Assembly (NCBI GenBank): GCA_009838965.1
Contig: VXQP01000047.1
Span: 1 to 38,472, forward strand
DNA: 38,472 bases
Source of the DNA: Chloroflexota bacterium
GTDB taxonomy: Bacteria; Chloroflexota; Dehalococcoidia; Lucifugimonadales; Australimonadaceae
Direction: 5' to 3'
Shown one piece after another: positions 104-21,401 of this stretch. The first letter of the stretch is position 1; each line of letters starts with the position of its first letter. The position numbers and the translations under genes were made by a program. The notes below the pieces were generated by a model. That model was given only the letters and a program-made list of their open reading frames with translations. It did not search any database and was not told where the DNA came from.

Positions 104-1849
<1,746 letters not shown>

Positions 1850-3732: not shown

Positions 3733-3835
3733 GCTCCCCTACTTGATTCTACGTCGCCGGAGCCCCTGAGGTTGCATGTTTTCGGGCGACTATGCGTGCC
3801 GGAACCAGTAGCGTAACCTGCCCGCGAGCGTTCTC

Positions 3836-5152
3836 TTGACCACCCCCAACCCGAAACCCCAGCGCCGCATCTTCTACGGCTGGTACATCCTCGGCGTCAT
3901 CCTGCTGACGGGGCTGTTCGCAGGCCCCACAAGCCAGGTCTTCATCGGCATACTCGTCGACCCGATCAGCGAGGACACGGGATGGAGCGCCACCGCCATC
4001 GCGGGAGCCGTGACCGTCGGCGGCGTTCTGGCGGGCGTGGGCTCGCCGCTCGTGGGGTTCCTCGCCGATCGCTACAGCCCGCGCGTGCTGATGACGCTGG
4101 GCGTGGTGCTCATGGGCGCCTCTTTCTTCCTCATCGCGGCCGCGCCGGGTGTCTGGGTGCTGATGGCGGGGTACGCCATCGCCCGGGGTATCGCGCAGAA
4201 CATGATCGCGGGCGTCGTTCCGCGCGTGGTTGCCGTCAACTGGTTCCGCAGGATGCGGGGCCGCGCCATCGGGCTCGTGGGGACAGCGCATCCGATAGGC
4301 ACATTCGTGCTGGGCCCTGTTGCGCTGCTGATCATCAGCGCGGGATACAACTGGCGGAGCGTGTGGGTCGTCCTCGGCATCGCCGTCATCGTCTTCCTCG
4401 TTCTGCCCAATGCGCTCATCATCCGTCGAACGCCGGAGGAGATGGGGCTGCTGCCGGACGGCGACGACGTTACGGAGGCGGGCGGGCAGGCGGCGGTCGA
4501 GGCGAGCGCACGGGAGGCCGCGCAGTCGTGGACGTTCCGTGAGGCGATGCGGACGCCGTCGTTCGTCCTCATCCTCATCGCCATCGTGCTCACGAACTAC
4601 GGTGGCGGAGGGCTGCCGTTCCACATGCCGCAGTACTACGGACAGGAAGGATTCGCAGTGCAGATAGGCGTCGCCGCTGTGAGCATGTTCGCCATCTCAG
4701 GCGCGTTCGCGAACACGCTCTGGGGGTTCCTGGCAGAGCGGATATCGGAGCGCCTGCTGGGCATCTTCACGATGCTCATGGGAACGGCGCTCGCGCTGGG
4801 CTTCCAGTTCGTGTCGAACCCCGTTGTGGCGGTCGCGTACGGCGTCCTGCTCGGCGTGGCGTCGCGCGGGGAAGGTTCCATCCTGATGATCCTCATCGCA
4901 AACTACTACGGCAGGCGCTCCTACGGCGCCATCTCCGGAGTCGTGCAGACCGCGCTGCTCGTCGGGCTTGCGCTCGGCCCCTTGATCATGTCGATGGTCA
5001 GGGAGTCCACGGGCTCTTATCTTCCCGTCTTCTACTCCGCCGCCGTAACCTTCACCATCGCAGCCGTGCTGCTGGCGCTTGCCGCGAAGCCGAAGCGCCC
5101 GCAGCACGCGCCCAACGCCGCAATCAATGCAGGAGGAGGCTCGCAGCCATGA
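3836..5152 (+). CDS. MFS transporter (monocarboxylate/oxalate-formate antiporter type)
   Basis: Predicted inner-membrane secondary transporter of 438 aa with about 12 hydrophobic helices in two halves. The N-terminal FYGWYILG motif before TM1 and the LADRYSPR loop between TM2 and TM3 are typical of the MCT/OFA branch of the major facilitator superfamily, whose members move small organic acids. A polar linker around residues 205-225 separates the halves. The start is TTG at 3836; no ATG lies near the N-terminus. Its stop overlaps the start of the following class II aldolase gene by four bases (ATGA), so the two are translationally coupled and the substrate is probably the one handled by that aldolase. 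The exact substrate cannot be read from sequence. Confidence 0.85.
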   Translation: MTTPNPKPQRRIFYGWYILGVILLTGLFAGPTSQVFIGILVDPISEDTGWSATAIAGAVTVGGVLAGVGSPLVGFLADRYSPRVLMTLGVVLMGASFFLIAAAPGVWVLMAGYAIARGIAQNMIAGVVPRVVAVNWFRRMRGRAIGLVGTAHPIGTFVLGPVALLIISAGYNWRSVWVVLGIAVIVFLVLPNALIIRRTPEEMGLLPDGDDVTEAGGQAAVEASAREAAQSWTFREAMRTPSFVLILIAIVLTNYGGGGLPFHMPQYYGQEGFAVQIGVAAVSMFAISGAFANTLWGFLAERISERLLGIFTMLMGTALALGFQFVSNPVVAVAYGVLLGVASRGEGSILMILIANYYGRRSYGAISGVVQTALLVGLALGPLIMSMVRESTGSYLPVFYSAAVTFTIAAVLLALAAKPKRPQHAPNAAINAGGGSQP

Positions 5153-5895
5153 CGACGAACACGGAGATCGAGGCGCTGAAGCGCCAGGTAGCGGACAGTT
5201 CGCACGTGCTCGACCACCAGGGGCTGGTGGACTTCCACGGCCATGTCAGCGCGCGCGTACCAGGCACGAACGTGCTCTACATCAAGCCGGTGCTGCGTCC
5301 GCACAATCAGATACGCGCGGAGGACATCATCGCGGTCGACATCGACGCCTATCTCGAAGGCGGCGACTCGCAGTGGAACCCGTTCGACCAGCGCGGACGG
5401 ACGATAACCGAGCCGGTGCCGCCGCGCGAGACGGCGCTGCACGCGGCCATCATGCGGGCGAGGACGGACGTGAACTCGGTCGTGCACACGCACCAGATGG
5501 TGGCGACCTCGATAGGCGCGGGAAACGTTCCCATCAGGGCACTCCAGAACCAAGGCATCCCGTTCGCGCCGGAGACGCCCATCTACCACAGACCCGACCT
5601 CATCACGACGACCGCACTGGGGGAGGAGGTCGCGGAGACGCTGGGCGACCGGACCGCGGCGCTGCTCCGCGGGCACGGCGTCGTGGTGGTGGGCGAGTCG
5701 ATGGACCACTCGGTGTCGAACACGATCTATCTCGAACGCGCCGCGATCACCCAGGTCATCGCGACTATCGTGGGGACACCGACTCCGCTGACGGACGAGT
5801 ACGTCGCGCGGTTCGGGCCGGACTGGTCGCGCCGGGCGTCGCACGCGTACGAGTACTTCAGGTCGCTCGTGCCGAGTTTGAAGGTGATGGAGTAG
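5149..5895 (+). CDS. Class II aldolase/adducin family protein
   Basis: Zn-dependent aldolase or decarboxylase fold of the fuculose-phosphate aldolase/AraD type, 248 aa, cytoplasmic. Visible are the HGHVSAR substrate loop (near residue 27), the metal-ligand HTH in VVHTHQM (near residue 106), and a third His in the RGHGVVVVGES loop (near residue 174). The family retro-aldolises sugar phosphates or decarboxylates hydroxy acids; the substrate is unknown here. Translation is coupled to the upstream MFS transporter by an ATGA overlap. A second family member lies convergent at 6021-6776, but the two differ clearly and are not a recent tandem duplication. Confidence 0.88.
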   Translation: MTTNTEIEALKRQVADSSHVLDHQGLVDFHGHVSARVPGTNVLYIKPVLRPHNQIRAEDIIAVDIDAYLEGGDSQWNPFDQRGRTITEPVPPRETALHAAIMRARTDVNSVVHTHQMVATSIGAGNVPIRALQNQGIPFAPETPIYHRPDLITTTALGEEVAETLGDRTAALLRGHGVVVVGESMDHSVSNTIYLERAAITQVIATIVGTPTPLTDEYVARFGPDWSRRASHAYEYFRSLVPSLKVME

Positions 5896-5907
5896 GGGCA
5901 ATCCAAA

Positions 5908-6012
5908 CCCTCACCCGCCTCTGCGCGGCGACCTCTCCCAGGGGGAGAGGTGAGGAAGGGCACCCACAAGGGGCGCCCCTACATCAGGCGAGGTTCCTGC
6001 CTGCGCAGGAAC
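5908..6012. repeat. Composite intergenic palindromic repeat
   Basis: Between convergent genes. It contains a CCCTCACCCGCC lead-in, the stem ACCTCTCCC/GGGAGAGGT (5931-5951, 3-nt loop), an AAGGGCACCCACAAGGGGCG module (from 5956), and the palindrome GTTCCTGCCTGCGCAGGAAC (5993-6012). These modules also occur at 1-80, 30969-31142 and 38323-38342. Hairpins here could end transcription from both sides, though no T-tract is present. Confidence 0.8.
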
Positions 6013-6020
6013 GACGGCAG

Positions 6021-6776
6021 TTAACGTTGGGCGAGGGCGGCGTAGTGGTGCCAGATGCCGCTGGGCTTGCGCGGCGTCGGGGCGACCTCCGGGGTGAGGT
6101 GGTCGGCCTGGGGCAGGGAGCGCATGTTGGCGACGAACTCGGCGGCCTGCTCGGGCGTGAGGACGGCGTGCCCGCTGCCGACGGCGCAGAACGCAAGGTA
6201 GTTCATGCGCGCCTGCTCCTCCAGGTGCAGCATGTTCACGATGGCGTCCTCCATGTCGCCGCCGACGGTCGCCGCGCCGTGGCCCTGCAGGAGGATGGCG
6301 CTGTGGCTGCCCATCAGACGTGCGACCTCCGCACCGTCCTTCTCGTGGATGATGAGGCGCGGGCTGGGGAACATCGGCAGCGGCTCCGCGAAGAGCGGCA
6401 TGCCCTCGATGCACATCGGCCCCATCTGCTCCTGCAGGACGCTCATGAGCACGGTGTAGCGCGGGTGGACGTGGACGACGGAGTTGACATCCGGGCGCTC
6501 GCGCAGCAGGCATGAGTGCATCTTCACCTCGTTCGGGAGGTTGAGCTCCTTCGGGCCGCCCGCCTTGTAGCCGTTCACGTCCACGACGACCATGTGCTCG
6601 GCGTAGGTCTGGGAAAGCGCGGGGCCGAGCGCCTTGATGACGAACCTGTCCGGGTCGTCCGGGAGGCGCACGCTCACGTGCCCGCGTTCGATGGTTGAGG
6701 CGTCGGCGAGCCCCATCTCGTACAGCATGCGGCTCGCCAGCGCGGCCTCTTCCATGAGTTCGGTCAGGTCTGCCAT
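6021..6776 (-). CDS. Class II aldolase/adducin family protein (second copy)
   Basis: The 251-aa protein has the class II aldolase hallmarks: GHVSVRLPDD near residue 33, the metal-binding HVH in VVHVHPRYT (near residue 103), and QGHGAATVGGD near residue 164. It is likely a Zn-dependent aldolase or decarboxylase of small hydroxy acids or sugar phosphates. An AAGGAG ribosome site lies 7 bp before its ATG. It follows the amidase gene by 21 bp and is the last gene of the minus-strand operon AtzG-like protein, amidase, aldolase. This suggests one pathway in which an amide is hydrolysed and the product cleaved; that pathway is inference. Confidence 0.88.
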   Translation of the reverse strand: MADLTELMEEAALASRMLYEMGLADASTIERGHVSVRLPDDPDRFVIKALGPALSQTYAEHMVVVDVNGYKAGGPKELNLPNEVKMHSCLLRERPDVNSVVHVHPRYTVLMSVLQEQMGPMCIEGMPLFAEPLPMFPSPRLIIHEKDGAEVARLMGSHSAILLQGHGAATVGGDMEDAIVNMLHLEEQARMNYLAFCAVGSGHAVLTPEQAAEFVANMRSLPQADHLTPEVAPTPRKPSGIWHHYAALAQR

Positions 6777-6797
6777 GTCGGACTCCTTGTTGTCGTA

Positions 6798-8207
6798 TCA
6801 GCCCAGCGGGGGCTGGCGCATGTGCCAGTCGGTCGCGGTCTGGTAGGCGTGCGCGGCGCGGAGCACGAGCGCGTCGTTCAGGCGCGCGCCGCCGAGCATG
6901 AGTCCGAGCGGCAGACCGTCGGGCGAGAAGCCGCACGGCACCGATGCACTCGGCATGCGCGCGAGGTTGAAGACGCGCGTAAGCTTCAGCAGCGCCTCCC
7001 GTGACGATATCTCGACACCCCCGAGACTCAGCGTGTCCTGCTCCGCGAGCGGGGCGGGTGTGGCAACGCTGGGCATCGCTATGAGGTCTACGTGTGTGAG
7101 CGCCTGCGCCACCGCCTGCGCATACGCGACGCGGGCCTGCTGCGCCCGGGCGTAGGCCGTCGCGGGGACGAAGAAGCCGGACTCGAAGCGGCGGCGTATC
7201 GCCTGGTCCATGCGGTCGCCGTCCCGGAGCACTCGCGCGCCGTGGGCCATCGCGGCCTCGGCGGTTGTGATGCCGGCGGCGATGGGGGTCGTCCACTCCA
7301 GCTCGGGCAGCGATATCTCCATCACCTGCGCGCCGAGCCCTTCCAGCGTGCGCCTCGCGGCCTCGAACGCGAGCGCGACGTCGGTGTCGATCGCCTCCCA
7401 GACGTACTGCAGGGGCACGCCGATGCGGAGCCCGCTCACGCCGCCCTCCAGCGACGCGACGTAGTCGGCCTTCGGGGCGGTTATCGAGACCGGGTCACGC
7501 TCGTCGTGGCCCGCGAGGACGTTCAGGAGCAGGGCGAGGTCCTCGACGGTGCGCGCCATCGGGCCTGCGGTGTCGAGCGAGTGCGAGAGCGGGGTGACGC
7601 CGAAGCGGCTCACGAGACCGAACGTCGGTTTTATCCCGGAGATGCCGCAGAGCGAGGACGGTATGCGGATGGAGCCGCCGGTGTCCGAGCCGAGGCCGAA
7701 GGGGAAGAAGCCCGATGCAACGCCTGAGCCGGTGCCGCTGGACGAGCCGCCGGGCATGCGGCCCTCGCCCCACGGGTTGCGCGGCATGCCGTAAGTGGCG
7801 TTCTGTCCGGTGGGGCCGAACGCGTACTCGACGGTGTTCACCTTGCCCATGGAGATAGCGCCCGCTTCGCGGAGCAGGCGTACGGCGGTGGCGTCTTCAT
7901 CCGGTACGAACTCGGCGTCGATCGCCGAGCCGGAGGTCGTCACGATGCCTGCGCTCCAGTAGATGTCCTTGATACCGAACGGCACGCCGTGCAGCGGGCC
8001 GCGCGAACGCCCCGCGGCGAGCTCGGCGTCGGCGGCGCGGGCGTCGGCCATCGCATCCTCGGAGGTGCGCGTGATGAACGCGCCGACCTGCGGTTCGAGG
8101 GCGTCAGCGCGGGCGACGAACGCACCCACGGCCTCGGTTGCGGAGAGCTCCTTCGTGGCGATGCGGCGTGCGAGGTCGGCTGCGGAGAGAGAGGTGACGT
8201 CCGTCAT
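6798..8207 (-). CDS. Amidase (amidase-signature family, AtzE/GatA-like)
   Basis: Hydrolyses a C-N bond of an amide or carbamoyl substrate with a Ser-cisSer-Lys triad. In the 469-aa protein the triad is visible as K80 (in VPFGIKD), S155 (GGSSSG) and S179 (DTGGSIR). The 24-residue gap between the two serines matches characterised family members. Length is normal for the family. The C-terminus ends with a W...PPL tail shared with the second amidase at 15447-16850. The start overlaps by ATGA the small AtzG/GatC-like gene upstream, and a class II aldolase follows 21 bp downstream. It is not GatA of the tRNA amidotransferase as far as context shows, since no gatB is nearby. Substrate unknown. Confidence 0.88.
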   Translation of the reverse strand: MTDVTSLSAADLARRIATKELSATEAVGAFVARADALEPQVGAFITRTSEDAMADARAADAELAAGRSRGPLHGVPFGIKDIYWSAGIVTTSGSAIDAEFVPDEDATAVRLLREAGAISMGKVNTVEYAFGPTGQNATYGMPRNPWGEGRMPGGSSSGTGSGVASGFFPFGLGSDTGGSIRIPSSLCGISGIKPTFGLVSRFGVTPLSHSLDTAGPMARTVEDLALLLNVLAGHDERDPVSITAPKADYVASLEGGVSGLRIGVPLQYVWEAIDTDVALAFEAARRTLEGLGAQVMEISLPELEWTTPIAAGITTAEAAMAHGARVLRDGDRMDQAIRRRFESGFFVPATAYARAQQARVAYAQAVAQALTHVDLIAMPSVATPAPLAEQDTLSLGGVEISSREALLKLTRVFNLARMPSASVPCGFSPDGLPLGLMLGGARLNDALVLRAAHAYQTATDWHMRQPPLG

Positions 8208-8389
8208 TCCATGCCTCCGACGGCCAGCTCGACGGGGATGTGGTCGACCGGCAGGTCGTCCAGCGGAGCGATGCGTCCGAGCATCGCCTCCACCTCGGGG
8301 CGCAGCTTCTCCAGGTGTTCGGGACCGGCGGTAATCCTGGCGGCGCGCGCCATCGAGGCGAACGCGTCCGGGGTCAGTTCAGGGGACAT
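8204..8389 (-). CDS. Small AtzG/GatC-like amidase partner protein
   Basis: A 61-aa protein starting at an ATG with a GGAGA ribosome site about 6 bp upstream. A longer frame upstream would run into the divergent HAD gene and is rejected. Sequence is weakly conserved, but helical content, an LTPDAF start, an acidic middle and a PVDHIPVELA end resemble GatC and AtzG, the small subunits that stabilise GatA/AtzE-type amidases. The strongest evidence is context: it is translationally coupled (ATGA) to an amidase, and an analogous 73-aa gene precedes the other amidase at 15236. Assignment is by size, position and faint similarity. Confidence 0.65.
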   Translation of the reverse strand: MSPELTPDAFASMARAARITAGPEHLEKLRPEVEAMLGRIAPLDDLPVDHIPVELAVGGME

Positions 8390-8418
8390 GGCAGTCTCCG
8401 TCGGGCAGGCTGCGCGCA

Positions 8419-8453
8419 AGTATAGCGGCTCATCGCGAGCGCGCTCGTATAAT
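8419..8453. promoter_or_regulatory. Divergent promoter pair with palindromic operator candidate
   Basis: In the 70-bp gap between the AtzG-like/amidase operon (minus) and the HAD gene (plus), a TATACT -10 reads leftward (8424 to 8419) and a perfect TATAAT -10 reads rightward (8448-8453). Between them, abutting the rightward -10, is the perfect 12-bp palindrome CGAGCGCGCTCG (8436-8447), which also covers the -35 position of the leftward promoter. Neither promoter has a consensus -35, fitting control by a bound regulator. No experiment supports this. Confidence 0.5.
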
Positions 8454-8459
8454 GGCGGG

Positions 8460-9128
8460 GTGAGCATCCCCTTCCGCGCTATCGTTTTCGATTTCGACGG
8501 CCTCATCGTCGACACCGAGCAACCCATCTACGAGGCGTATTCATCGATATTCGCGGAGCTGGGTGCATCGCTTCCACTGAGCGTCTGGCAGGACGTGATC
8601 GGCCAGGGCGTGGGTAACGATGCCGCATTTGTCCACCTCGAAAGCACTATCGGGCGAGAGGTGGACCGTGAGGCGATACGCGCAGAGGCGCGGGCGAGGC
8701 GTCGCGACGTGACACTCACGCTCCCGCCGCGCGAAGGCGCAGGCGAACTCATCGCGGAGGCGAGAGAGGCTGGCCTCTCGCTCGCTGTGGCGTCGAGTTC
8801 CACGCATGCCTGGGTGGACTGGCATCTCGACCGGCTCGGGTTGCTGCCCTCGTTCGACGCTGTCTGCACCCGCGACGACGTCGGGGAGCCGAAGCCGAGC
8901 CCGGCGGTGTACTGCCTGGCGCTCGACCGGCTGGGGATGCAGCCGCACGAGGCGTTCGCGATCGAGGACTCGCCGCACGGGGTGACGGCGGCGAAGGCAG
9001 CGGGACTGCGGTGTGTCGCCGCGCCGAACCCGCTCACGGCGAACATGGACCTGCGCCACGCAGACCACCTGTTGCCGTCGCTGGCGGGCGTCTCGCTCTC
9101 GGACGTCGTGGCGGGACTGGTGGAGTAG
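8460..9128 (+). CDS. HAD-superfamily phosphatase, beta-phosphoglucomutase/PGP-like
   Basis: The 222-aa HAD hydrolase has all four motifs: DFDGLIVDTE (nucleophile D11, acid D13), the VASSST serine/threonine of motif II, the motif III lysine in GEPKPSP, and FAIEDSPHGVTAAKAAG (motif IV). It likely dephosphorylates or isomerises a small phospho-metabolite. The start is GTG at 8460, the only start that places the motif at the expected distance; the ATG at 8452 is out of frame. There is no ribosome site, and a perfect TATAAT ends six bases before the GTG, so the mRNA is probably leaderless. It ends 10 bp from the convergent lipoprotein gene. Confidence 0.9.
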   Translation: MSIPFRAIVFDFDGLIVDTEQPIYEAYSSIFAELGASLPLSVWQDVIGQGVGNDAAFVHLESTIGREVDREAIRAEARARRRDVTLTLPPREGAGELIAEAREAGLSLAVASSSTHAWVDWHLDRLGLLPSFDAVCTRDDVGEPKPSPAVYCLALDRLGMQPHEAFAIEDSPHGVTAAKAAGLRCVAAPNPLTANMDLRHADHLLPSLAGVSLSDVVAGLVE

Positions 9129-9138
9129 GCAATGCCCT

Positions 9139-10416
9139 TTACTCCGTTGCCGAGGGCACCCAGAACGCGAGGCGGCCTTCGGCGACGGCGCGCGGCGGAG
9201 CGTTGCCGACCATGTCCACGATCCAGACCTGCGGCCCTACGTCCCGCTCGACAGCGCCCGCGAACACCAGTTTCGTGGAATCCGCCGACCAGATGAGGTG
9301 CGAGGGAGCGAACTGGTCGAAGAACTGGGTGTGGGTGAGGAAGTCCGGCGTCGAGATGAAGCGGGTCAAGTGCCCCACGCCACCGGAAGGGTCGACGACC
9401 TGCCAGGTGAGGGCATCGTCGTAGGCTGCACGGGCGATAAGCTCGCCATCCGGGGACCAGAAGAAGGCGGCCGTGCGGCCAGGCGCGAGCAACCGAGGCA
9501 GGTCTGAGCCGTCGTCCTTCACGACGCGCAGTTCGGCATAGAACAGGCTCGACGACCGCTTGGTGGCGACCGCGATGCGGTCACCGGCGGGCGACCAGGC
9601 GAAGGCTGCCTCGCCGGAGATATCCATCAGGGTGACGCGGTCCGTTCCGTCGAGGTTCGAGGTGACGAGCTTGCCCATGCCGCTCTCGTCGACGACGTAG
9701 GCGATGCGCTTGCCATCCGGACTGAACGCTGGGACGCGGTAGCGGAACGAGTCCGCGTCGAGGTCGAGGGTGGAGCGGTCGTGCGTATCGTGGAGCAGCA
9801 ACTGCTCACGCCGGTGTACGAGGATGTACCTGCTGTCGGGCGACCAGACGTGGTAGAGCGGGGCGTTAGCTGAGACCTCGTAGGGCTCGCCGCCGTCGGC
9901 GCGGACGGCGAAGAGGCCGAGTCCCTGACCGGGACCTCGCGGAGCGACGAACGAGAGATGCCGCGAGTCCGGAGCCCAGAGAGCGTAGTGCGGGGCGCCG
10001 TTGGCGACGAGGGGGACGGAACCAGGCTGGGTCTCGTGGAGCTGGCGCTCCGTCGAACCGTCGGCGTCGAGCAGGATGAGGCCCGCGAGCGCGTTACCGT
10101 CGAGGCCTGGCGTGCGCGAGATGGCGATGAGCCTGCCGTCCGGAGACCAGGTTGGCCAGGTGTAACGGACGCTCTGGGTCTGCTGCGGGCGTAACGCGAT
10201 GTTCGTACCAGAGGGGGCTGACGCGCTTCTGCTGGTGAAGCGTTCGGGGTTGCCGCCGCCGCCCTCCACGGTCCAGACGTCGAAGTGCGGGCTGACGAAG
10301 ACGATGCGCTGGGTGCTGGATGGTTCCGGCGTATCGGGTGCCGGCTCGTCGTTGCCGCACGCCGCTATGGCGAGAAGCAACGGGGCTATGAATGCGGTAC
10401 GGAGCAGTAGCCTCAA
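9139..10416 (-). CDS. Beta-propeller (TolB/WD40-like) lipoprotein
   Basis: An exported protein of about 425 aa with repeated blades carrying TWSPDG, LWAPDS, VWSPDS, AFSPDG, AWSPAG, FWSPDG and IWSADS, the PD40/TolB signature of a six- to seven-bladed propeller. With the TTG start at 10416 (GGGAG site nine bases upstream) the N-terminus is MRLLLRTAFIAPLLLAIAAC, an ideal lipoprotein signal with lipobox LAAC. The frame stays open to a TTG at 10455, but those codons fall in a dispersed repeat. The protein probably sits on the outer face of the membrane as a binding scaffold; ligand unknown. Not part of a Tol-Pal cluster. Confidence 0.8.
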   Translation of the reverse strand: MRLLLRTAFIAPLLLAIAACGNDEPAPDTPEPSSTQRIVFVSPHFDVWTVEGGGGNPERFTSRSASAPSGTNIALRPQQTQSVRYTWPTWSPDGRLIAISRTPGLDGNALAGLILLDADGSTERQLHETQPGSVPLVANGAPHYALWAPDSRHLSFVAPRGPGQGLGLFAVRADGGEPYEVSANAPLYHVWSPDSRYILVHRREQLLLHDTHDRSTLDLDADSFRYRVPAFSPDGKRIAYVVDESGMGKLVTSNLDGTDRVTLMDISGEAAFAWSPAGDRIAVATKRSSSLFYAELRVVKDDGSDLPRLLAPGRTAAFFWSPDGELIARAAYDDALTWQVVDPSGGVGHLTRFISTPDFLTHTQFFDQFAPSHLIWSADSTKLVFAGAVERDVGPQVWIVDMVGNAPPRAVAEGRLAFWVPSATE

Positions 10417-10430
10417 CCTGGCCGTCTCCC

Positions 10431-10487
10431 GAGAGATGCTTCGACTGCGCCTCAAGGCTACGCCCTTCGGCTTCGCTCAGCATGACA
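10431..10487. repeat. Dispersed repeat of the GAGATKCYTCGACT...CTCAGCATGAC type
   Basis: A roughly 57-bp unit reading GAGAGATGCTTCGACTGCGC and ending CTTCGCTCAGCATGACA. Related units form the inverted pair at 38173-38206 and 38236-38292. It abuts the 5' end of the lipoprotein gene and, read through, would add a spurious N-terminus. A CCCTCACCCGCC module (10510-10521), shared with the other mosaics, follows it. Confidence 0.7.
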
Positions 10488-10539
10488 GCCCCGCGTCCCG
10501 CCGGAGTACCCTCACCCGCCGCCGCTCCAGCGGGGCGGA

Positions 10540-11394
10540 TCACCCGTCTACGCGGACCTCGAGGCTGATGTCGAGGGCAGTGACCGAGTGCGTCACCGCG
10601 CCGGTGGAGAGGAGGTCGACACCTGTCTCGGCGACGTCGCGGACGGTGTCGATGGTGATGCCGCCGGACGCCTCGGTGAGCGCGCGGCCCTTGCAGATGG
10701 CGACGCCCTCGCGCATCTGCTCCGGCGTCATGTTGTCGAACAGGATGATGTCGGCGCCGGCCTCGACGGCCTCGCGCACCTGGTCGAGCGTGTCGCACTC
10801 GACCTCGATGCGGATCGTGTGGGCGGCGTCGCGCTTGGCGCGCTGGATCAGCTCGGTCATGCTCTCGCCGCGAGTGGCCATCGCCGCGATGTGGTTGTCC
10901 TTGATGAGGATGCCGTCGCCGGTGCTCATGCGGTGGTTGTGGCCGCCTCCCATGCGGACGGCGTACTTGTCCAGCAGCCGCCAACCCGGGAGCGTCTTGC
11001 GCGTGTCGATCATCTGTGTGGGCAGGCCGTCGATGGCGCGCACGTAGCCGTTGACGGCGGTGGCGATGCCGCTCATGCGCTGCACGAAATTGAGGGCGGT
11101 GCGCTCCGCGCGGAGGATGCTCGACATGCGCCCGCGTATCGCCGCGACGTACATGCCGCGCTCGACGGGCGAGCCGTCGACGACGAGGCGGGTCGTTTCG
11201 AGCGTGGGGTCGGTCTCGCGGAAGACCTCGAGGGCAACGTCGACGCCGGCGAGGACGCCGTTGGCCTTCGGCATCATCAGCGCCTCGCTCGTGAGGTCGT
11301 CGGGCAGGAGCGAGGAAGTGGGGTCGTAGGCGACCTCGTCCTCGGCCAGCGCCATGCGTATCAGTTCGCGTGTTCCGTGCCAGTGGTGGAGCAT
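10540..11394 (-). CDS. nadC: Nicotinate-nucleotide pyrophosphorylase (carboxylating)
   Basis: Converts quinolinate and PRPP to nicotinate mononucleotide, CO2 and PPi in de novo NAD synthesis. The 284-aa protein matches the family length and shows ERTALNF (97-103), DTRKTLPG (130-137), the GGGHNHR phosphate/quinolinate loop (149-155), then KDNHI and a VECDT strand of the alpha/beta barrel. The ATG has a GAGGTG ribosome site. No nadA or nadB is adjacent, so it appears as a stand-alone gene. The 94 bp upstream of it (11395-11488) hold nothing recognisable. Confidence 0.96.
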   Translation of the reverse strand: MLHHWHGTRELIRMALAEDEVAYDPTSSLLPDDLTSEALMMPKANGVLAGVDVALEVFRETDPTLETTRLVVDGSPVERGMYVAAIRGRMSSILRAERTALNFVQRMSGIATAVNGYVRAIDGLPTQMIDTRKTLPGWRLLDKYAVRMGGGHNHRMSTGDGILIKDNHIAAMATRGESMTELIQRAKRDAAHTIRIEVECDTLDQVREAVEAGADIILFDNMTPEQMREGVAICKGRALTEASGGITIDTVRDVAETGVDLLSTGAVTHSVTALDISLEVRVDG

Positions 11395-11488
11395 GGTTTC
11401 ACCTCGCGCCAGGTGGATTTTCGCTTGTGAGAGGGAATTCTACGGCGGCGCAAGGGGTACTTTGTGACGGAACGCACAAAGTAGAAGA

Positions 11489-12088
11489 CTACGGGTCAAG
11501 CCATGCCCTGACTTCCGTCCACCGCTTCAGGTCGCTTGCTCGTGGCCACTGGCCTCGGAGCTGGGGCTTTGCGTGCCGGGGTTGCCGCTCGATCTTCGTC
11601 AAACCGAACGTGTATAGCCTGTTCTCACAGCCTGCGCCGACGAGCATCCTGACAACCTCTCGACCTCGTCCTTCGAAACCGCCCTTGCCTCCCCAGGCGC
11701 AGACGATGCGGTCTGCATGACCCGCAGCTTCCATGAGGTGGCGGTCGTTGACGTGCAGATCACTCTGGGAGCCGGTTCGGCAAAGCACACATCCGGCGAA
11801 TCCACCTCCCGGCTGGCACGGCCCCATCCGGTCTTGTGGAAGCGTATCCCAGTTACCGCCACGTACGGGGAACAGGTTGCACACCCAGAGCGTGCGGTAG
11901 TCCCACTCCTGAGCGAGGTCCTTGCACCGGTCGATAGTCTCGTCCGAGCGGTCCCAGTCGGCCCTGTTCGGGTTCAGCATCAGGAACAGGCAGATGCCAT
12001 TGGAACCGCTCGACAGTCTGGCTTCGAGCCAGTAGCGGTAGCGGTGTCCGGCGGGCTTTTCCCAGGAACAGACGTTATGCAAAGCCAA
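11489..12088 (-). CDS. DUF1643 family protein
   Basis: A 199-aa protein with the DUF1643 landmarks: YRYWLEARLS at the N-terminus, FLMLNPNRADWDRSDETIDRC, a WVCNLFPVRGG strand, NDRHL, IVCAWGGKGG, and a C-terminal FGLTK...QPRHAK motif. The biochemical role of DUF1643 is not established; it is often found in mobile or phage-related regions. The start is a TTG without a convincing ribosome site. There is a Cys-rich stretch between residues about 90 and 107 (CQPGGG, GCVLC) not typical of the family as I recall it. Codon use is less GC-biased than its neighbours, consistent with acquired DNA. Confidence 0.72.
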   Translation of the reverse strand: MALHNVCSWEKPAGHRYRYWLEARLSSGSNGICLFLMLNPNRADWDRSDETIDRCKDLAQEWDYRTLWVCNLFPVRGGNWDTLPQDRMGPCQPGGGFAGCVLCRTGSQSDLHVNDRHLMEAAGHADRIVCAWGGKGGFEGRGREVVRMLVGAGCENRLYTFGLTKIERQPRHAKPQLRGQWPRASDLKRWTEVRAWLDP

Positions 12089-12123
12089 CAGGGGTATCCC
12101 GCGATGCTCCGGCAGGCCTCGCC

Positions 12124-12324
12124 TCAGACTGACTCGAACTCCAAGGCCGAGAGGTCAAGGGCGGAAGAACGCTTTGAAAGATGGAGCATCTCGATGCCTA
12201 CAACTTCATTCGACGCGCTGTAATCAAGCACGATTCCGGGCGAGACTTCCTCGGACTCGACGATGGGCGAGTCATCCAGGCACAGGTAGAAGGCATCGGC
12301 TTCTTTGTCAACGTTCAGTTTCAT
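12124..12324 (-). CDS. DUF2283 family protein, probable antitoxin
   Basis: A 66-aa protein of the DUF2283 type: a short beta strand with DKEADAFYLCLDD, then VSPGIVLDYSASNEVVGIEML. The gene overlaps the preceding DUF4258 gene by four bases (ATGA), the usual arrangement of a DUF4258/DUF2283 pair that is predicted to be toxin-antitoxin. In this order the presumed toxin comes first. The antitoxin role is inference from this pairing; no DNA-binding motif is visible. Confidence 0.75.
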   Translation of the reverse strand: MKLNVDKEADAFYLCLDDSPIVESEEVSPGIVLDYSASNEVVGIEMLHLSKRSSALDLSALEFESV

Positions 12325-12572
12325 AGTCTGCCTCGCATGCCACGGTCAAAGAATACGCTGATAACCCGCCAGGGAGCAACGCGAGTGTTCACGACTACAC
12401 ACAGCGCCCTGCTCCCTCGTTCGGGAACATTCCGAAAGAACCTCTCCAATTCGGTGTCGTAGGGGTCCGGCTCACGCATCGCTGGTTCGGCTACCGCTTG
12501 CGCGACCCACTCGTTGGGGAATCTCCCTTCCTCCATGACTTGGAGCGCGTGCCGGGTGAACTCCAGCCGCAT
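12321..12572 (-). CDS. DUF4258 family protein, probable toxin
   Basis: An 83-aa protein resembling DUF4258 with FTRHALQVMEEGRFPNEWV, an acidic loop, and a C-terminal ALCVVVN...VISVFFD strand pair reminiscent of the RelE/BrnT-like fold. The frame is open to a GTG at 12602, but the conserved domain begins right after the ATG at 12572, so I prefer the shorter form. The gene is coupled by ATGA to the DUF2283 gene. The pair lies in a patch of reduced GC between miaB and the DUF1643 gene. Function as an mRNA-cleaving toxin is plausible but unproven. Confidence 0.65.
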   Translation of the reverse strand: MRLEFTRHALQVMEEGRFPNEWVAQAVAEPAMREPDPYDTELERFFRNVPERGSRALCVVVNTRVAPWRVISVFFDRGMRGRL

Positions 12573-12612
12573 CGGTGAGGCCGGAGGATGACCATCGACC
12601 ACAGGAACTGCC

Positions 12613-13914
12613 CTATGCAGGTGTCGCGATGCGCGCCTTGCCCTGCAGCGACCAGGGGGTCGTGCGGGTGATGCGGACGTTCAGGACGTCGCCCAGCGTC
12701 ACGCCGTCGTCCTCGGTGTGCTCGAAGAAGACGAGCTTGTCGGTGCGGGTGCGGCCCTGCCAGCGGCCCTTGTTGTGGCCGTCGACCAGCACTTCCTGCG
12801 TCGTGCCGAAGTAGGCGGTGTTGATCTCCGAGAGGATGGTCTCCTGCGCGGCCTCGACGGCCTTCAGGCGGCGGTGCTTCTCCTCCTGCAGCACGTCGTC
12901 GGTCATCTTCCGCTCGGCGAAGGTGTTGGGGCGGGTGGAGTACATCGCGGAGTGGACCTTGTCGAAGCGAATGTCGCGCACCATGTCGAGCGTGTCCTCG
13001 AACTGCGCCTCGGTCTCGCCAGGGAAGCCGACGATGAGGTCGGTGACCATCGCGACGCCGGGGACAGTCTCGCGGATGCGGGCGACGAGCTCGCGGTACT
13101 GGGCGTTGGTGTAGCCGCGGCGCATGTTCGCGAGCACCTCGTCGTTCCCGGCCTGGAACGGGAGGTTGATGTTCTTCATCACGCGCGGCAGGCCGGCGAC
13201 CGCCTCGATGATGCGCTCGCTCATGTCGTTGGGGTGGGAGGTGAGGAAGCGGATGCGGGCCAACTCCGGCACCTGCTCGTGGACAGCCTCCAAGAGGTCG
13301 GCGAGGTCGGGTGCGCCGGGAAGGTCGTGGCCGTAGGAGTCGACGTTCTGGCCGAGGAGCGTGACCTCGCGGACGCCGCGCGCTACGAGCATGCGGCACT
13401 CCTCGACGAGCTCCGGGATGGGCCGCGAGACCTCGCGTCCGCGCCGGTAGGGGATGATGCAGAACGTGCAGAACTTGTCGCAGCCGTGGATGATGGGCAC
13501 GTGCGTCGTGACCGAGGGATGGCCCGGCACGAACGGCCCCGCGCAGCCGTCGGGATCGACGCCCATCTTGTCGCCGACGAGCTCGATGAGTGGCTCGAAC
13601 TGCTGCGGCTGCATGAAGACGTCGACGTAGGGATAGCGCTTGCGGAGGTCGTCCTGCTTCGGGCCGACCATGCAGCCCATGAGGGCGAGCGTCTTCTCCG
13701 GGAAGCGCTGCTTCCACGGCTTGAGTGACGTGAGCATGCCGGTGACGCGGTCCTCCGCCTGCTGCCGCACGACGCAACTGTTGAGGACGATGACGTCGGC
13801 CTGCTTGGGCGTGTCGGCAGACTCGAGGCCGAGTTGCTCCAGGCCCGCCCCCATCCGCTCGGAGTCGGCCTTGTTCATCTGACAGCCAACGGTCCAGATG
13901 TAGTAACTCGGCAT
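12613..13914 (-). CDS. miaB: tRNA-2-methylthio-N6-dimethylallyladenosine synthase MiaB
   Basis: Radical-SAM methylthiotransferase that modifies i6A37 of tRNAs reading UNN codons. In the 433-aa protein the N-terminal UPF0004 domain holds the auxiliary-cluster cysteines C11, C47 and C81. The radical-SAM CX3CX2C follows at C145, C149 and C152 in HGCDKFCTFCIIPYRRGR, and a TRAM domain closes the C-terminus. GREVSRP and the SHPNDM stretch favour MiaB over RimO or MtaB. It starts at ATG 13914, six bases past the stop of the upstream protease-like gene at 13920. Confidence 0.93.
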   Translation of the reverse strand: MPSYYIWTVGCQMNKADSERMGAGLEQLGLESADTPKQADVIVLNSCVVRQQAEDRVTGMLTSLKPWKQRFPEKTLALMGCMVGPKQDDLRKRYPYVDVFMQPQQFEPLIELVGDKMGVDPDGCAGPFVPGHPSVTTHVPIIHGCDKFCTFCIIPYRRGREVSRPIPELVEECRMLVARGVREVTLLGQNVDSYGHDLPGAPDLADLLEAVHEQVPELARIRFLTSHPNDMSERIIEAVAGLPRVMKNINLPFQAGNDEVLANMRRGYTNAQYRELVARIRETVPGVAMVTDLIVGFPGETEAQFEDTLDMVRDIRFDKVHSAMYSTRPNTFAERKMTDDVLQEEKHRRLKAVEAAQETILSEINTAYFGTTQEVLVDGHNKGRWQGRTRTDKLVFFEHTEDDGVTLGDVLNVRITRTTPWSLQGKARIATPA

Positions 13915-14296: not shown

Positions 14297-14389
14297 TGGC
14301 GGAGGGAGCGGGATTCGAACCCGCGAGGGAGCTCATCACCCCCAACCCGCTTAGCAGGCGGGCGCACTAGGCCACTATGCGATCCCTCC
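14297..14389 (-). tRNA. tRNA-Ser (anticodon GCU)
   Basis: A 93-nt cloverleaf on the minus strand: 7-bp acceptor GGAGGGA/TCCCTCC, anticodon loop CTGCTAA with GCT (14353-14355) decoding AGC and AGU, a long class II variable arm, T arm GCGGG-TTCGAAT-CCCGC, discriminator G and an encoded CCA end. The long variable arm and anticodon agree on serine. Confidence 0.97.
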
Positions 14390-16850: not shown

Positions 16851-16885
16851 CGGGGCGTGTTGCCAAGCCGAGGGGGAGCCGGTCA

Positions 16886-17092
16886 ATGGAAGTGAACCTC
16901 GCACGCTTCGGCAGGGTGCTGGTCAAGGTCGGTCTTGCGGCCCTGGCCATAGGGATAGCCCAGACGTTGTTGTGGCCGAACGCGCCCGACCCGGTCCAGA
17001 CCGCGATGAACTTCGTCTTCTTCTTCGGTGTTGTGACGGGCCTCATGCCGACGCTGGCCAGCCTGCTGTCCCGCCACTGGCCGAGGTGGTAG
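16886..17092 (+). CDS. Small two-helix membrane protein
   Basis: A 68-aa protein with two hydrophobic helices: about residues 11-29 (LVKVGLAALAIGIAQTLL) and 41-62 (MNFVFFFGVVTGLMPTLASL). A GGGGGAG ribosome site lies about 7 bp before its ATG. It sits between the amidase gene and the relic of an amidase tail. No family recognised. Confidence 0.5.
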   Translation: MEVNLARFGRVLVKVGLAALAIGIAQTLLWPNAPDPVQTAMNFVFFFGVVTGLMPTLASLLSRHWPRW

Positions 17093-17101
17093 CGGAAGCA
17101 T

Positions 17102-17131
17102 TGGTACGAGGCATGCCCGCCGCTAAAGTAG
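17102..17131 (+). pseudogene. Relic of an amidase 3' end
   Basis: Ten codons reading W-Y-E-A-C-P-P-L-K-stop match the last ten codons of the amidase at 16821-16850 (W-H-E-A-R-P-P-L-E-stop): 26 of 30 bases are identical, and all four changes are transitions. Nothing upstream of it is amidase-like. It is probably a scar of duplication or recombination, at the left edge of the low-GC island. Confidence 0.5.
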
Positions 17132-17141
17132 GCGGCAGGCG

Positions 17142-19991
17142 CTACGAAGCAGTGAGGTCGGCGACTGCCACTAGCACCAAATCGTTTGGGTGGCGCAAGG
17201 TTGTGCAGGCAGCGGCCAACTCAGCACTGGCACAATTTCGCAGACGTACCATTACTTCGCGTCGATCACTTTGTATCATGGGATAGATGAACTCCTTCGG
17301 TTCGAGGAGCAAGCTAGCGAAGAAGCTAGGGTGAATAGTTGCTTCGAGGCTGTCTTGTGGCAAAAAGACAGGTACCAATGCCTCCCAACGAGGGATGCCT
17401 TGATCGTTCTGCCAGCGAAGTTTATAAACGCCCAACGTACCAGAAATCGGAAATGATACGCCTGTATACTCTCCTTTGAATTCAGAAGACTTAGCATACT
17501 CAATCAGCATGCGAAAGAAGGGGCTGTAAAAGTCCATTAAAACCAATCGTGAATCGCGTATGGCTAACTGGCGATCTACTGTGACACGGACAACCGATGC
17601 CCGCTGGGGGAATTCCGAAAACTGGCCGCGTAGGTCTTCAGGTAATTCTACTTCCAGCACTCGGCCATTATAGAGCCGCTCCCTGATATTGACATCTAAG
17701 TGAGGGAGGATTCTCTCCAAAAAGCTCAGTAGCTCTCTAGGGCCGAATGTATGCAGTATGCCAGCAGAACTAGGATCGTAACTTTCAATATTTGAAAAGA
17801 GCCTCTCTTGCTGAGAACGAGATTGTTGGGCACGGACAAGCGCTGCCTCAATTTCTGTTGCCGTCCTGGTAATTTCCATTTCCCTATTCTGAGCTAGCAG
17901 GGAAGCAATATCAAGCCTATCCATGATTTCGCCAATAATCTCAGTCGTTATACCTTCCCTGAACTCCGACCCAACCTGAGATAAATCTTGTGCGATGTTC
18001 AACACTCTTCTCATCATTAATGCCAAGGCTTGATTGTCGAAACTATCTTCCGCCATGAGGTTGAATACCATAACACGTTCTGTTTGCCCATACCGATACA
18101 AGCGACCGGCACGTTGTACTAGGCGACGCGGATTCCAAGGCAAATCATAATTGACTAGAATATGACAGCGTTCATGAAGGTTGATGCCTTCGCCTCCTGC
18201 TTCAGTGGAAACCAAGAACTGGGTATCGGTATTGAACCTGTCGATGTTTGCGCGCTTTTCATTCAATGACATGCTGCCATGGATTTGCGCAATGCCGCTA
18301 TCTAGATATCGTTGCTGCAATTCTGAAATCAAGTACTCTTGCGTGGCTCGGTATTCGGTAAATATCAACACCTGCTTTCCTTCTTGAAATAGCGGATCGA
18401 TGATGTCCTTGAGGAAGTGCTGCATTTTATAATCTTCGTCGCGAAGTTCTGCGGCGGCGTAACAAAGGCTGGTGAGCTGATGCAGTTCATCTTCAAAGAA
18501 CGGAGATGCACCTGTATAGGAATGCGATAAAGCTTCCGCTACCTCGTGCAGATTGTCCATGCCGTCAGACCCTTCCTCAAATGGATCCTCTATTTCCTCT
18601 AAAGAAATATGTTCCGTGTTTAGCGTACCTTGAGCGCTTAAGCCCAGTAACCGATCTCGCCGCCGCTGCAATGCTCGCTCTATCGCTGCGATACTTGATG
18701 ACGCGAGCTTGCGATAGGTTGTCATCACAAACCCGATAGCACGTCCTGTGTTGCCACCAGCTTCCGATGCGGTGTAGCCCTCATGAAGATACCGTTGGAG
18801 CTCTGCATTAAAAGCGGTAGCGGCATGCGATAGAGGAACTTCAATCAAAGTCGTGCTTTGACCCTTGAATATGAACTGACCACTCGCGTCAGTAACCAAG
18901 CTCTTGCGGTTACGCAGCACAACTTCGGCAACGACTGATGGGTCAGAAAACATCGTTCGGATTCGCCGACTGAGATCCGGACGCAGTAGCAGTAATAAAT
19001 TGGCAAACTGGTCGGTTCTCCCTTGATGGGGAGTACCTGAAAGAAATATAAGGCTATCGGTCATCTGTTGCAGAGTTTCTGCTAGTCGATAACGGAGAGT
19101 GGTTGCTTGACTTTCAATCTTACTCAGGTGATGGGCCTCATCAAAAACGATAACATCCCATTCTCCAGAGTCTTGAAACACAGGTTTATGCAAATCCGTT
19201 TTGGCGCGGTCGATTGACACGATTACTTTGTCGAATGACGACCAGTGCGATGGTTGATTGATGTTGAAGTCCAAACCGTATATCCGAAAATCTTCGTTGA
19301 ATTTATAGCGCATTTCATCTTGCCATTGACGGACTACTGCGGCTGGACAAACAACAAGAACTCGCCGCGCTTGCCGCCGCCGCTTCATCGCTGCGAGAAG
19401 AAGACCTACCTCTATTGTTTTGCCTAATCCCACGTCGTCAGCTATGAGCCAATTAGAATGGTCGGAGGTCATGATACGGTGGACTAAGTCAATTTGGTGA
19501 GGCAATGGGTCGACATCAAACCTGTCAAGAGCGCCTGTCACTTGATTCCATGAATCTAAGGCATACGCTAATGTCTTCAATTGAAACCTTTCCACCTCAT
19601 TTGTTTCGAGTCTGAGGTATTGTTGTTCGGTGTCTTTGATACGCACGAGGTTTTCATAAGGAATCCATCTACTCTCACCTGTGTTGTGAAACTGTACGAG
19701 CACCAATTCTCTTCCTGCAATGTCCCGGACTGAGCGAACCACCCCAGAACCGAGCGTTCTTCTCGTGTTAGAAAGTGGCTTGTCTTGTACTATATGACCA
19801 TTTCGAAACCCATTGCGTAGTTCATCTACAGTATGCCATTCAGTAATGCCTTCGCTTCCCCATTGCACTTGTATGGAAGTTAGATGCCCTTGTTGTTCAT
19901 GGCTAACTACAACACCCAATTTATTCGGGTAGCGTTCGATGTGCGATACAAAGCACCCTGCTCCGGGGAAGAGCCGACTAGTCAATGCCAT
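17142..19991 (-). CDS. RapA/SNF2-family DNA helicase-like ATPase
   Basis: A 949-aa superfamily 2 ATPase. Two small beta-barrel-like segments at the N-terminus (about 10-60 and 79-118) recall the tandem Tudor/KOW domains of RapA. Then come Walker A DDVGLGKT (185-192), the DEAH box in VIVFDEAHHLSK (284-287), motif III SGTPHQG (318-324), motif V STEAGGEGINL (595-605) and motif VI QRAGRLYRYGQ (626-636), followed by a long C-terminal region of unknown fold. Length is close to E. coli RapA (968), but no other housekeeping context supports that role. Codon use is far less GC-rich than its neighbours. It overlaps the tryptophan-rich gene upstream by 14 bp; a GGGAG site precedes its ATG. A role in defence or DNA remodelling is inferred. 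Confidence 0.85.
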   Translation of the reverse strand: MALTSRLFPGAGCFVSHIERYPNKLGVVVSHEQQGHLTSIQVQWGSEGITEWHTVDELRNGFRNGHIVQDKPLSNTRRTLGSGVVRSVRDIAGRELVLVQFHNTGESRWIPYENLVRIKDTEQQYLRLETNEVERFQLKTLAYALDSWNQVTGALDRFDVDPLPHQIDLVHRIMTSDHSNWLIADDVGLGKTIEVGLLLAAMKRRRQARRVLVVCPAAVVRQWQDEMRYKFNEDFRIYGLDFNINQPSHWSSFDKVIVSIDRAKTDLHKPVFQDSGEWDVIVFDEAHHLSKIESQATTLRYRLAETLQQMTDSLIFLSGTPHQGRTDQFANLLLLLRPDLSRRIRTMFSDPSVVAEVVLRNRKSLVTDASGQFIFKGQSTTLIEVPLSHAATAFNAELQRYLHEGYTASEAGGNTGRAIGFVMTTYRKLASSSIAAIERALQRRRDRLLGLSAQGTLNTEHISLEEIEDPFEEGSDGMDNLHEVAEALSHSYTGASPFFEDELHQLTSLCYAAAELRDEDYKMQHFLKDIIDPLFQEGKQVLIFTEYRATQEYLISELQQRYLDSGIAQIHGSMSLNEKRANIDRFNTDTQFLVSTEAGGEGINLHERCHILVNYDLPWNPRRLVQRAGRLYRYGQTERVMVFNLMAEDSFDNQALALMMRRVLNIAQDLSQVGSEFREGITTEIIGEIMDRLDIASLLAQNREMEITRTATEIEAALVRAQQSRSQQERLFSNIESYDPSSAGILHTFGPRELLSFLERILPHLDVNIRERLYNGRVLEVELPEDLRGQFSEFPQRASVVRVTVDRQLAIRDSRLVLMDFYSPFFRMLIEYAKSSEFKGEYTGVSFPISGTLGVYKLRWQNDQGIPRWEALVPVFLPQDSLEATIHPSFFASLLLEPKEFIYPMIQSDRREVMVRLRNCASAELAAACTTLRHPNDLVLVAVADLTAS

Positions 19992-20991
19992 CTATAACTA
20001 CTCCCATTGAAACTGGGCACCATCCTAGATTGTCATGCCACTCGCTGGAGTCATACCAATCCTGTTCCACGAGGTGCAGGGGCACACGTTGACCTTCTGC
20101 GGCATATAATGGCCACGCGTATCCTGCCGGCTCGTCATCTCCTTCAGGGACAACAGGTGCTTCCAGATAGCCTTCCCAATTCGTGAATTGGGCGCGCAGG
20201 AGCGCGAATGAAGCAAACGTGGGAAACCCGAGCTTCCATATCTCACGCTCGATCCAATCACTATACCATTGATCATCGATTATTTCGTGCCATTCATATT
20301 CTAAGCGATTCTGGATTAACTCATACGTAGCATTCAAACTTAGATTGTACCGGTTGAATGATGAAATCCAACATCCCGCGTAGGTGTGCCAATAGCAGGA
20401 TTCCCACCAATCAGACCTAGTTTCCGACTCCCACAGTTTGCGAAATTGCAAGAACAGAAGGAAGCTATGCCCTGTCCACTCGTGCTCGCTTAGCCAGGGG
20501 AGCCATGACTGCAACCGCCGTAGACTCAACTCTTCGAGGAGTGCTATTACCTGTTCCCTGTCTTCTTGCGGCAGAATTAGGGCTGATACGAATTGGTCAA
20601 TTCTCAGTCCCCGAGATAGCTCTGTAATGCTCTGATCGACCACATACAGCGGCGCGTGCAAGTCCGAGTCAACCTCGGCGAAATAATCAGGTTCATCCCA
20701 ATCCCCCGATTCATCGAAGCTGTCAAGGTACTCCGCAACGGTGTACGAGTCTGCTGATGCGTGTCGGTATGTGCCTTCTAGGGCTTTCGGCAGCGGCTCC
20801 ATGGGAACGTGGCTCATAGGAGAGTGCAGCGTGAGAACGTGGACAGAGCCTGGGGGATGAGGCGCGGTCGGGAGGGCCCATGGGTCATCCTCCTGTGAGT
20901 GTGAAGGGGTGGAGTCTAAGAAGTCTTCAAAGCTCCATTGGATTACGACGTTGGAAGGCACGGTGGGTTTGTATAGGTGGCACATAGGCAT
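19978..20991 (-). CDS. Tryptophan-rich protein of unknown family, partner of the helicase
   Basis: I do not recognise a family. The protein is about 337 aa and contains 20 tryptophans (about 6%), clustered in DWWESCYWHTYAGCW and YEWHEIIDDQWYSDWIEREIW. The N-terminal third is acidic and probably disordered; the rest looks alpha-helical and soluble. It has no signal peptide and no obvious catalytic motif. Start is uncertain: the frame is open to ATG 21057, but that would overlap the cimA promoter. ATG 20991 and GTG 20961 are alternatives, and a TTGACA-N16-TATACA pair (20997 to 20970) would favour the last as a leaderless start. Its stop overlaps the helicase start by 14 bp, so the two are made together. 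Low GC like the helicase. Confidence 0.7.
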   Translation of the reverse strand: MPMCHLYKPTVPSNVVIQWSFEDFLDSTPSHSQEDDPWALPTAPHPPGSVHVLTLHSPMSHVPMEPLPKALEGTYRHASADSYTVAEYLDSFDESGDWDEPDYFAEVDSDLHAPLYVVDQSITELSRGLRIDQFVSALILPQEDREQVIALLEELSLRRLQSWLPWLSEHEWTGHSFLLFLQFRKLWESETRSDWWESCYWHTYAGCWISSFNRYNLSLNATYELIQNRLEYEWHEIIDDQWYSDWIEREIWKLGFPTFASFALLRAQFTNWEGYLEAPVVPEGDDEPAGYAWPLYAAEGQRVPLHLVEQDWYDSSEWHDNLGWCPVSMGVVIDGID

Positions 20992-20997
20992 TGTCAA
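20970..20997 (-). promoter_or_regulatory. Candidate promoter of the helicase operon
   Basis: On the minus strand TTGACA (20997-20992) is followed after 16 bp by TATACA (20975-20970). Transcription would start near 20961-20963, at or beside an in-frame GTG of the tryptophan-rich gene. It lies inside the longest version of that reading frame, so it also bears on the true start. Confidence 0.45.
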
Positions 20998-21045
20998 CCG
21001 TACTCTGTTAGTAGTGTTCTGGTCAGCTAGCGCGTCGGGGGGCTG

Positions 21046-21074
21046 CTGACGGAGCATTCACGTTGTAGTATCAT
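21046..21074 (+). promoter_or_regulatory. Promoter of the cimA T-box transcript
   Basis: CTGACG (21046-21051), a 17-bp spacer, then TATCAT (21069-21074) gives a plausible sigma-70 promoter with start near 21081. This is just where the T-box Stem I begins. Confidence 0.55.
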
Positions 21075-21287
21075 TCGTGTAACGGCGTCGACGGAGACGA
21101 GTAGACGGGCCCACGGCGGTCGAGCGAGCCGGTGACGGTGTGAGACCGGTGCGCCGCCCCAGTCGAAGATCCCTCCCGAGCCGTCAGCCGAAGGCTCGCA
21201 CAGCGAGTGAGTAGACCTGACCGGGTTCGCCGCCCGTTACCGAAGGCGGGAGCGTGATGGCGCTCCGCTGAGGGTCCCCGCCCTCCA

Positions 21288-21316
21288 CTGGATTCCCGCC
21301 TTCGCGGGAATGACGG
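21288..21316. repeat. Palindromic repeat inside the T-box leader
   Basis: The palindrome ATTCCCGC-CTTC-GCGGGAAT (21292-21311) followed by GACGG is identical to the copy at 31119-31138. It lies in the linker between the Stem III-like part and the T-box antiterminator. Confidence 0.8.
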
Positions 21317-21374
21317 AAGAGAACGGAATGGCGCAAGGAGAGACGGGGAAACCAGGGTGGTACCGCGGGTGATG

Positions 21375-21401
21375 CCCGTCCCTGTCAGGGGCGGGTTTTT
21401 T
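21375..21401 (+). terminator. Intrinsic terminator of the T-box leader
   Basis: Stem CCCGTCCC/GGGGCGGG (one G-T wobble) around a TGTCA loop, then TTTTTT (21396-21401). It begins eight bases after the T-box motif, the classic layout in which the antiterminator and this hairpin are mutually exclusive. Confidence 0.92.

Follow-up and report, generated by a model that had tools for sequence, protein, structure and literature searches.

Comparison with known helicase-based systems

Helicases similar to RapA operate in BREX type 3, in BREX-related (BR) systems and in ARMADA, and they share ancestry with components of DISARM, according to the passages of PMC12839542 and PMC12458937 consulted. The present analysis concerns a helicase of this kind and a tryptophan-rich partner protein encoded directly before it in a Chloroflexota genome (Dehalococcoidia; Australimonadaceae). 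The window, that is, the whole stretch of DNA analysed, comprises 38,472 nt (contig VXQP01000047.1 of GCA_009838965.1, positions 1-38,472, forward strand). In its list of open reading frames (ORFs), the minus strand at 17142-20961 contains two overlapping genes, with the partner upstream and the helicase downstream. The two form a real and recurrent gene pair whose pairing is obligate. The main parts of the pair are as follows.

17142-19991, minus strand: helicase, RapA/BrxHII-type SNF2 (SF2) ATPase of 949 aa; Pfam PF00176 and PF00271; full-length orthologues 40-83% identical
18963-19499, minus strand: first helicase lobe (SNF2-rel_dom, residues 165-343), holding DDVGLGKT and DEAH
18087-18413, minus strand: second helicase lobe (Helicase_C, residues 527-635), holding QRAGRLYRYGQ
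19978-20961, minus strand: partner gene, adaptor or sensor candidate; GTG start, 327 aa (337 aa if read from ATG 20991); 16 other loci have an orthologue at the corresponding position
19978-19991, minus strand: 14-nt gene overlap (partner stop, helicase start), from the ORF coordinates

The helicase matches SNF2-rel_dom (5e-21) and Helicase_C (5e-23) in Pfam. Its motifs DDVGLGKT (K191), DEAH (284-287) and QRAGRLYRYGQ are intact, and an alignment of 10 orthologues shows them near-invariant; intactness is what the first-pass annotation had stated for the SF2 motifs. No nuclease domain was detected in the helicase with Pfam, NCBIfam or PADLOC profiles. From size and layout, and with no domain match, the protein appears to combine a Tudor/SH3-like N-terminus with a RapA-like C-terminus.

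Which described system does this helicase resemble most closely? The best PADLOC model is BrxHI/BrxHII (311 bits), and BrxHII of BREX type 3 is likewise a RapA-like helicase of ~940 aa with no fused nuclease (PMC12839542, in part). However, the pair has no BrxC, BrxXI or PglZ alongside, none of them appearing beside the window helicase in the ORF list, and it has an obligate novel partner. The Hma or DUF499-centred BR systems also use an SNF2 helicase, and at one locus (L137) the pair directly follows HmaB and HmaC. Type-1 and Type-2 BR helicases usually bear a restriction endonuclease (REase) or PLD nuclease, according to passages of PMC8565338 and PMC12839542, whereas the pair helicase has neither; moreover, most pair loci are without HmaB and HmaC, and the HmaB methylase and the HmaC (DUF499) ATPase are absent from the window and present only in L137. 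DrmD of class 1 DISARM is an SNF2 helicase whose model matches residues 159-735, but the score of 330.7 bits falls far under the cut-off of 610, and neither drmA, drmB, drmC nor a methylase is found among the window neighbours in the ORF list. ZorD scores 62.9 bits against a cut-off of 1500, and neither ZorA nor ZorB was seen among the same neighbours. The earlier view that the locus is neither DISARM nor Zorya thus holds, as both scores are low and the companions are absent. DpdE likewise stays below its cut-off (189.6 against 500 bits). ARMADA contains ArmA, a BrxHII/RapA-like helicase, but it includes a YprA helicase and a PglX-like methylase besides (PMC12458937), neither of which is present at the window locus. 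Finally, Escherichia coli RapA shares the helicase core and overall size, but it is a core transcription factor with no partner gene and is distant in the tree described below.

No description of the pair was found in the literature searched, which covered open full text, without subscription papers or supplements, and included passages of PMC12839542, PMC12458937 and PMC8565338. Within the resources searched, the partner domain and the pairing are new, and defence by a RapA/BrxHII-type helicase is of a known kind. The proposal of an undescribed two-gene system is supported by conservation of the pair at 17 loci and by a partner domain unmatched in the libraries.

Conservation of the pair and the core domain of the partner

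The window partner used alone as a query found no relatives in 400 genomes of the phylum, viral contigs, plasmids or phages, and its family surfaced only via the helicase orthologues. Scanning genomes with the helicase yielded six full-length orthologues (63-83% identity), tblastn against plasmids gave three more (40-43%) and profile searches gave a further seven. With duplicates removed and the window included, the pair loci number 17 and are spread over Chloroflexota, Pseudomonadota and Deinococcota. At each of them, the gene directly upstream on the same strand encodes the partner; the genes usually overlap or lie at most 35 nt apart (-14 to +35 nt in most, 86-262 nt in three). A profile of the core domain gives one match per genome in 14 pair-bearing genomes, always adjoining the helicase. 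The partner of locus L139 matches three of 72,556 plasmids by tblastn (E 1e-22, 9e-5 and 2e-4), each match adjoining a helicase, and has no match in phages. The first-pass annotation had proposed a search for conserved adjacency across genomes, with a single occurrence of the partner next to the helicase as the unfavourable outcome; the search shows adjacency at 17 of 17 loci in three phyla and in 14 of 14 genomes. Two further candidates (L159 and L160) were not counted as pair loci, because giant proteins without the core domain precede their helicases. They represent other two-gene units, in which a giant unknown protein (at least 1853 aa) stands directly before a RapA-like helicase (L159, 372-8655; L160, 1-8457); the L159 unit is located ~4.5 kb from drmC.

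In an IQ-TREE phylogeny of 37 helicases, the 17 pair helicases form one clade (ultrafast bootstrap, UFBoot, 100), and E. coli RapA is remote on a long separate branch. The gammaproteobacterial copies L035-L037 nest beside those of the window and L033, within the chloroflexotal copies (UFBoot 100). This nesting is most simply explained by transfer between phyla, although L035 and L036 are short contigs of metagenome-assembled genomes. The earlier concern that the helicase might group with core RapA and have no defence association is not borne out, given its own clade and the defence genes at no fewer than five of 14 loci. Sister to this clade are two PLD-type helicases (UFBoot 100), and next to one of them lies a Type IIG restriction-modification (R-M) enzyme. 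This enzyme and its PLD-SNF2 helicase lie on a viral contig (L052, 2005-8619), and a similar pair is found in L163/L015 (L163, 7168-13712), with the Type IIG identity established for L052. These units resemble the pair as two-gene units of the sister clade, but their helicase has a PLD-type N-terminus and their partner is a Type IIG enzyme.

The partner is an acidic protein (isoelectric point, pI, 4.36) with 20 tryptophans in the 337-aa reading, in agreement with the earlier count. Two parts are distinguished.

20185-20652, minus strand: Trp-rich core domain of the partner, made of helices and a single beta-hairpin; common to all 17 partners; AlphaFold2 (AF2) model of the joint alignment
20653-20961, minus strand: acidic N-terminal segment with the motifs W-x2-(E/D)DF-x-D and (E/D)(D/S)DPW; per-residue model confidence (pLDDT) mostly <50

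The N-terminal segment is probably disordered, judging from the model, and its residues W19, D23, E34, D36, P37 and W38 are invariant in seven short partners. As had been supposed, the partner belongs to no known family, in that it has no match in Pfam, NCBIfam, PADLOC or PHROGs. A fold comparison suggested at the outset gave no clear match of the core in PDB or BFVD (lowest Foldseek E-value 0.29; top VIA-align Z 4.4, against a designed protein). A match of the partner to a uteroglobin construct was set aside as weak.

The partners fall into short and long forms. The short ones (~325-400 aa) are those of the window, L033, L034, L035, L036, L037, L038 and L149, and the long ones (410-1315 aa) are those of L137, L138, L139, L140, L150, L151, L042, L040 and L041. 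The long partners add segments resembling tetratricopeptide repeats (TPR) or, in Deinococcus, long coiled-coil-like and proline-rich stretches; the partners of Deinococcus are basic overall (pI about 9). An AF2 model of the whole protein from seven short sequences reached only pLDDT 50 and a predicted TM-score (pTM) of 0.34, too poor for a fold search to be meaningful. The core modelled from a joint alignment of 14 sequences, which leaves out three plasmid-record rows, reached pLDDT 86.9 and pTM 0.79; because the whole protein was modelled first and only the core second, part of the pLDDT gain is due to trimming, core residues already having block means of 47-87 in the whole-protein run. Alignment of short with long partners by hhalign gave E 0.094, then 0.022 after members were added, and plain cross-searches with hidden Markov models gave no significant match between them. 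Short and long partners carry one core domain, given their same position beside orthologous helicases, the collinear alignment and the improvement of the joint model. Partner sequences diverge more than those of the helicase (57 versus 83% identity between congeners, 25-35 versus 63-64% beyond), which indicates that the partner evolves faster.

Mobility, expression and genomic context

The two genes occupy a block that differs from its surroundings in composition and in presence among congeners.

16851-21064, no strand: accessory block missing from congener G905, which has 49 bp instead; identity drop relative to L033 limited to about 17.1-21.1 kb
20970-20997, minus strand: promoter-like TTGACA-16-TATACA, whose -10 box ends 8 nt before GTG 20961; same layout in L033

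In G905, 49 bp separate the amidase gene from the leader of cimA; in the window, 4.2 kb lie between them, and in congener L033 the pair occupies the same slot. The G+C content is 0.522 for the partner and 0.478 for the helicase against 0.666 for the 4-kb flanks; the low-GC island and the 14-bp overlap at 19978-19991 noted earlier both stand. DNA identity between the window and L033 is mostly 86-97% outside the block and 49-87% at about 17.1-21.1 kb, and the drop delimits a foreign block at ~17.1-21.07 kb. Synonymous divergence (dS) from L033 is 0.20-0.35 in the flanking genes, about 2.6 in the helicase and beyond saturation in the partner. Since the dS of the pair far exceeds that of the flanks, divergent alleles appear to have replaced one another at a single slot rather than descended in a simple vertical manner. 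Such replacement is common for defence loci. The pair is rare (3 of 343 Dehalococcoidia and 5 of 369 Gammaproteobacteria), and plasmid copies exist, two of them on large Deinococcus plasmids and one (L042) on a Nitrosococcus plasmid. Rarity, plasmid copies, low GC, an empty site, allele swapping and cross-phylum nesting together indicate that the pair is mobile and moves horizontally.

The claim that the pair has a promoter of its own is credible, because L033 retains similar boxes (TTGACC-16-TATAGC) and the identical spacing of 8 nt from the end of the -10 box to the start codon. The number of promoter-like sites in the region is by itself what chance would give (5 against an expected 3.8), and a default promoter scan, which requires T at position 6, does not list TTGACA-16-TATACA. 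The partner probably starts at GTG 20961 (327 aa), given this spacing and a conserved Trp at residue 9, in register with the ATG of L033. The start at ATG 20991 given in the first-pass annotation probably lies 10 codons upstream of the true one, as this ATG precedes the -10 box. With the box ending only 8 nt before the GTG, the transcript is probably almost leaderless, and the 14-nt overlap suggests coupled translation of partner and helicase.

Genomic context was scored in the 14 loci with readable surroundings, within about 10 kb; at least five of them (L137, L139, L151, L042 and L153, the L038 region) contain recognised defence genes, as a raw count. In L137, HEC-01A (521 bits), HmaB (1541 bits) and HmaC (1170 bits) lie immediately upstream of the pair, which follows hmaB-hmaC on the same strand after ~80 bp, in the hmaA position; no HmaA helicase-nuclease was seen in the 19 kb of this locus. 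The HEC-01A ATPase, HmaB, HmaC, the TPR partner and the helicase all lie on one strand there (61-13309). Type I R-M genes are located just downstream of the pair in L139, which also has MksE, SMC-like, WYL and HsdM genes, and in L151, which has WYL and a Type IIG-like protein. L153 contains a Type III methylase and a GajB-like helicase with insertion sequence elements between, L042 has Dsr1 (2207 bits) as a neighbour, and the surroundings of L041 include another helicase from a PADLOC family. No recognised defence neighbours were found in the window, L034, L037, L140, L149 or L150. A PADLOC call of DpdF in L154 (3732-5666, minus strand, ~800 bits) looks like an ordinary RecQ and was not counted as a defence neighbour; it counsels caution in reading DpdF profile names.

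By the ORF list, the window neighbours include cimA-like, amidase and miaB-like genes, among others. A small ORF of 67-68 aa (16887-17092, plus strand) lies within the insert relative to G905. Its dS to L033 (0.23) is flank-like, and it was therefore possibly gained separately from the pair. A T-box-like leader precedes the cimA-like gene (21079-21386, plus strand; 66 bits and E 2.4e-14, short of the 93 that Rfam sets as gathering score); a terminator-like stem comes after it at 21374-21396. Elsewhere in the window, a second low-GC island (~51-57%; 35699-37058, plus strand) encodes an unknown 201-aa protein overlapping an HNH endonuclease (PDLC04132, 389 bits), a DUF1643-like gene lies in a mild GC dip (11489-12088, minus strand), and tRNA-Ser(GCT) is near another (14297-14389, minus strand).

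Functional interpretation and rival explanations

On balance, we favour the reading that the pair is a two-gene module that moves horizontally and is most likely directed against phages or other mobile elements. A more specific proposal is tentative, at somewhat less than even chances: that the pair works by itself as an undescribed antiphage system, its modular adaptor, with an unrecognised domain, aiming a RapA-type translocase that has no nuclease. On this proposal, interference would come from translocation itself, and the pair would have replaced the Hma helicase-nuclease in some hosts. One promoter would drive the partner and then the helicase, which by its family would be a translocase on double-stranded DNA without a fused nuclease. 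The partner may dock on the helicase via its conserved helical core and tune or target it, and its acidic, fast-changing front, extended by TPR or coiled coils in other lineages, may detect the invader or bring in a further factor. The helicase, driven by ATP along the incoming DNA, could then strip or block its transcription or replication, or pass the DNA to a nuclease encoded elsewhere. At L137, where the pair occupies the position after hmaB-hmaC, it might stand in for the missing HmaA helicase-nuclease as an Hma-type motor. Several points weigh against a defence role. Neither a nuclease nor any other effector can be recognised in the pair, nine of the 14 loci, including the window, have no obvious defence neighbour, and the homology of short and long partners is weak by sequence alone. 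Furthermore, mobility and fast evolution would also fit plasmid-maintenance or stress modules.

The context in L137, L139 and L151, together with the Type III methylase near L153, would also fit a non-autonomous module that serves larger systems of the restriction type (Hma/DUF499 BR or Type I R-M) as an accessory, replacing or boosting their helicase-nuclease step. We consider such dependence unlikely, as the accompanying systems vary by locus and none is seen near the window, L033, L034, L037, L140, L149 or L150. A role in host physiology is less probable still, with the helicase as a RapA-like ATPase of transcription recycling or DNA repair that has its own cofactor and is incidentally mobile. 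RapA is indeed the nearest solved structure (E 8e-31), with similar size and layout, and the two copies on large Deinococcus plasmids accord with this role; however, the RapA equivalog score is 159.3 bits against a cut-off of 576, E. coli RapA branches apart, and the pair occurs in ~1% of genomes with repeated gain, loss and allele swapping and with defence neighbours. The least probable explanation, to which we give little weight, is a toxin-antitoxin-like or plasmid-maintenance pair with an acidic partner restraining a toxic helicase. Its acidic upstream partner, overlapping genes and plasmid copies are as expected of such pairs, but both proteins are large and modular, the conserved core is structured and does not resemble a small antitoxin, copies on chromosomes are common, and in Deinococcus the partner is basic overall.

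Helicases of the SNF2/RapA type are found repeatedly, in BREX, DISARM, Dpd, Hma and ARMADA, and the role of the helicase is hard to isolate in such many-gene systems. A self-contained two-gene unit with an adaptor domain that can be modelled would allow direct study of how the translocase acts and is targeted, and the core domain makes it possible to search for a family which present-day defence finders leave unannotated.

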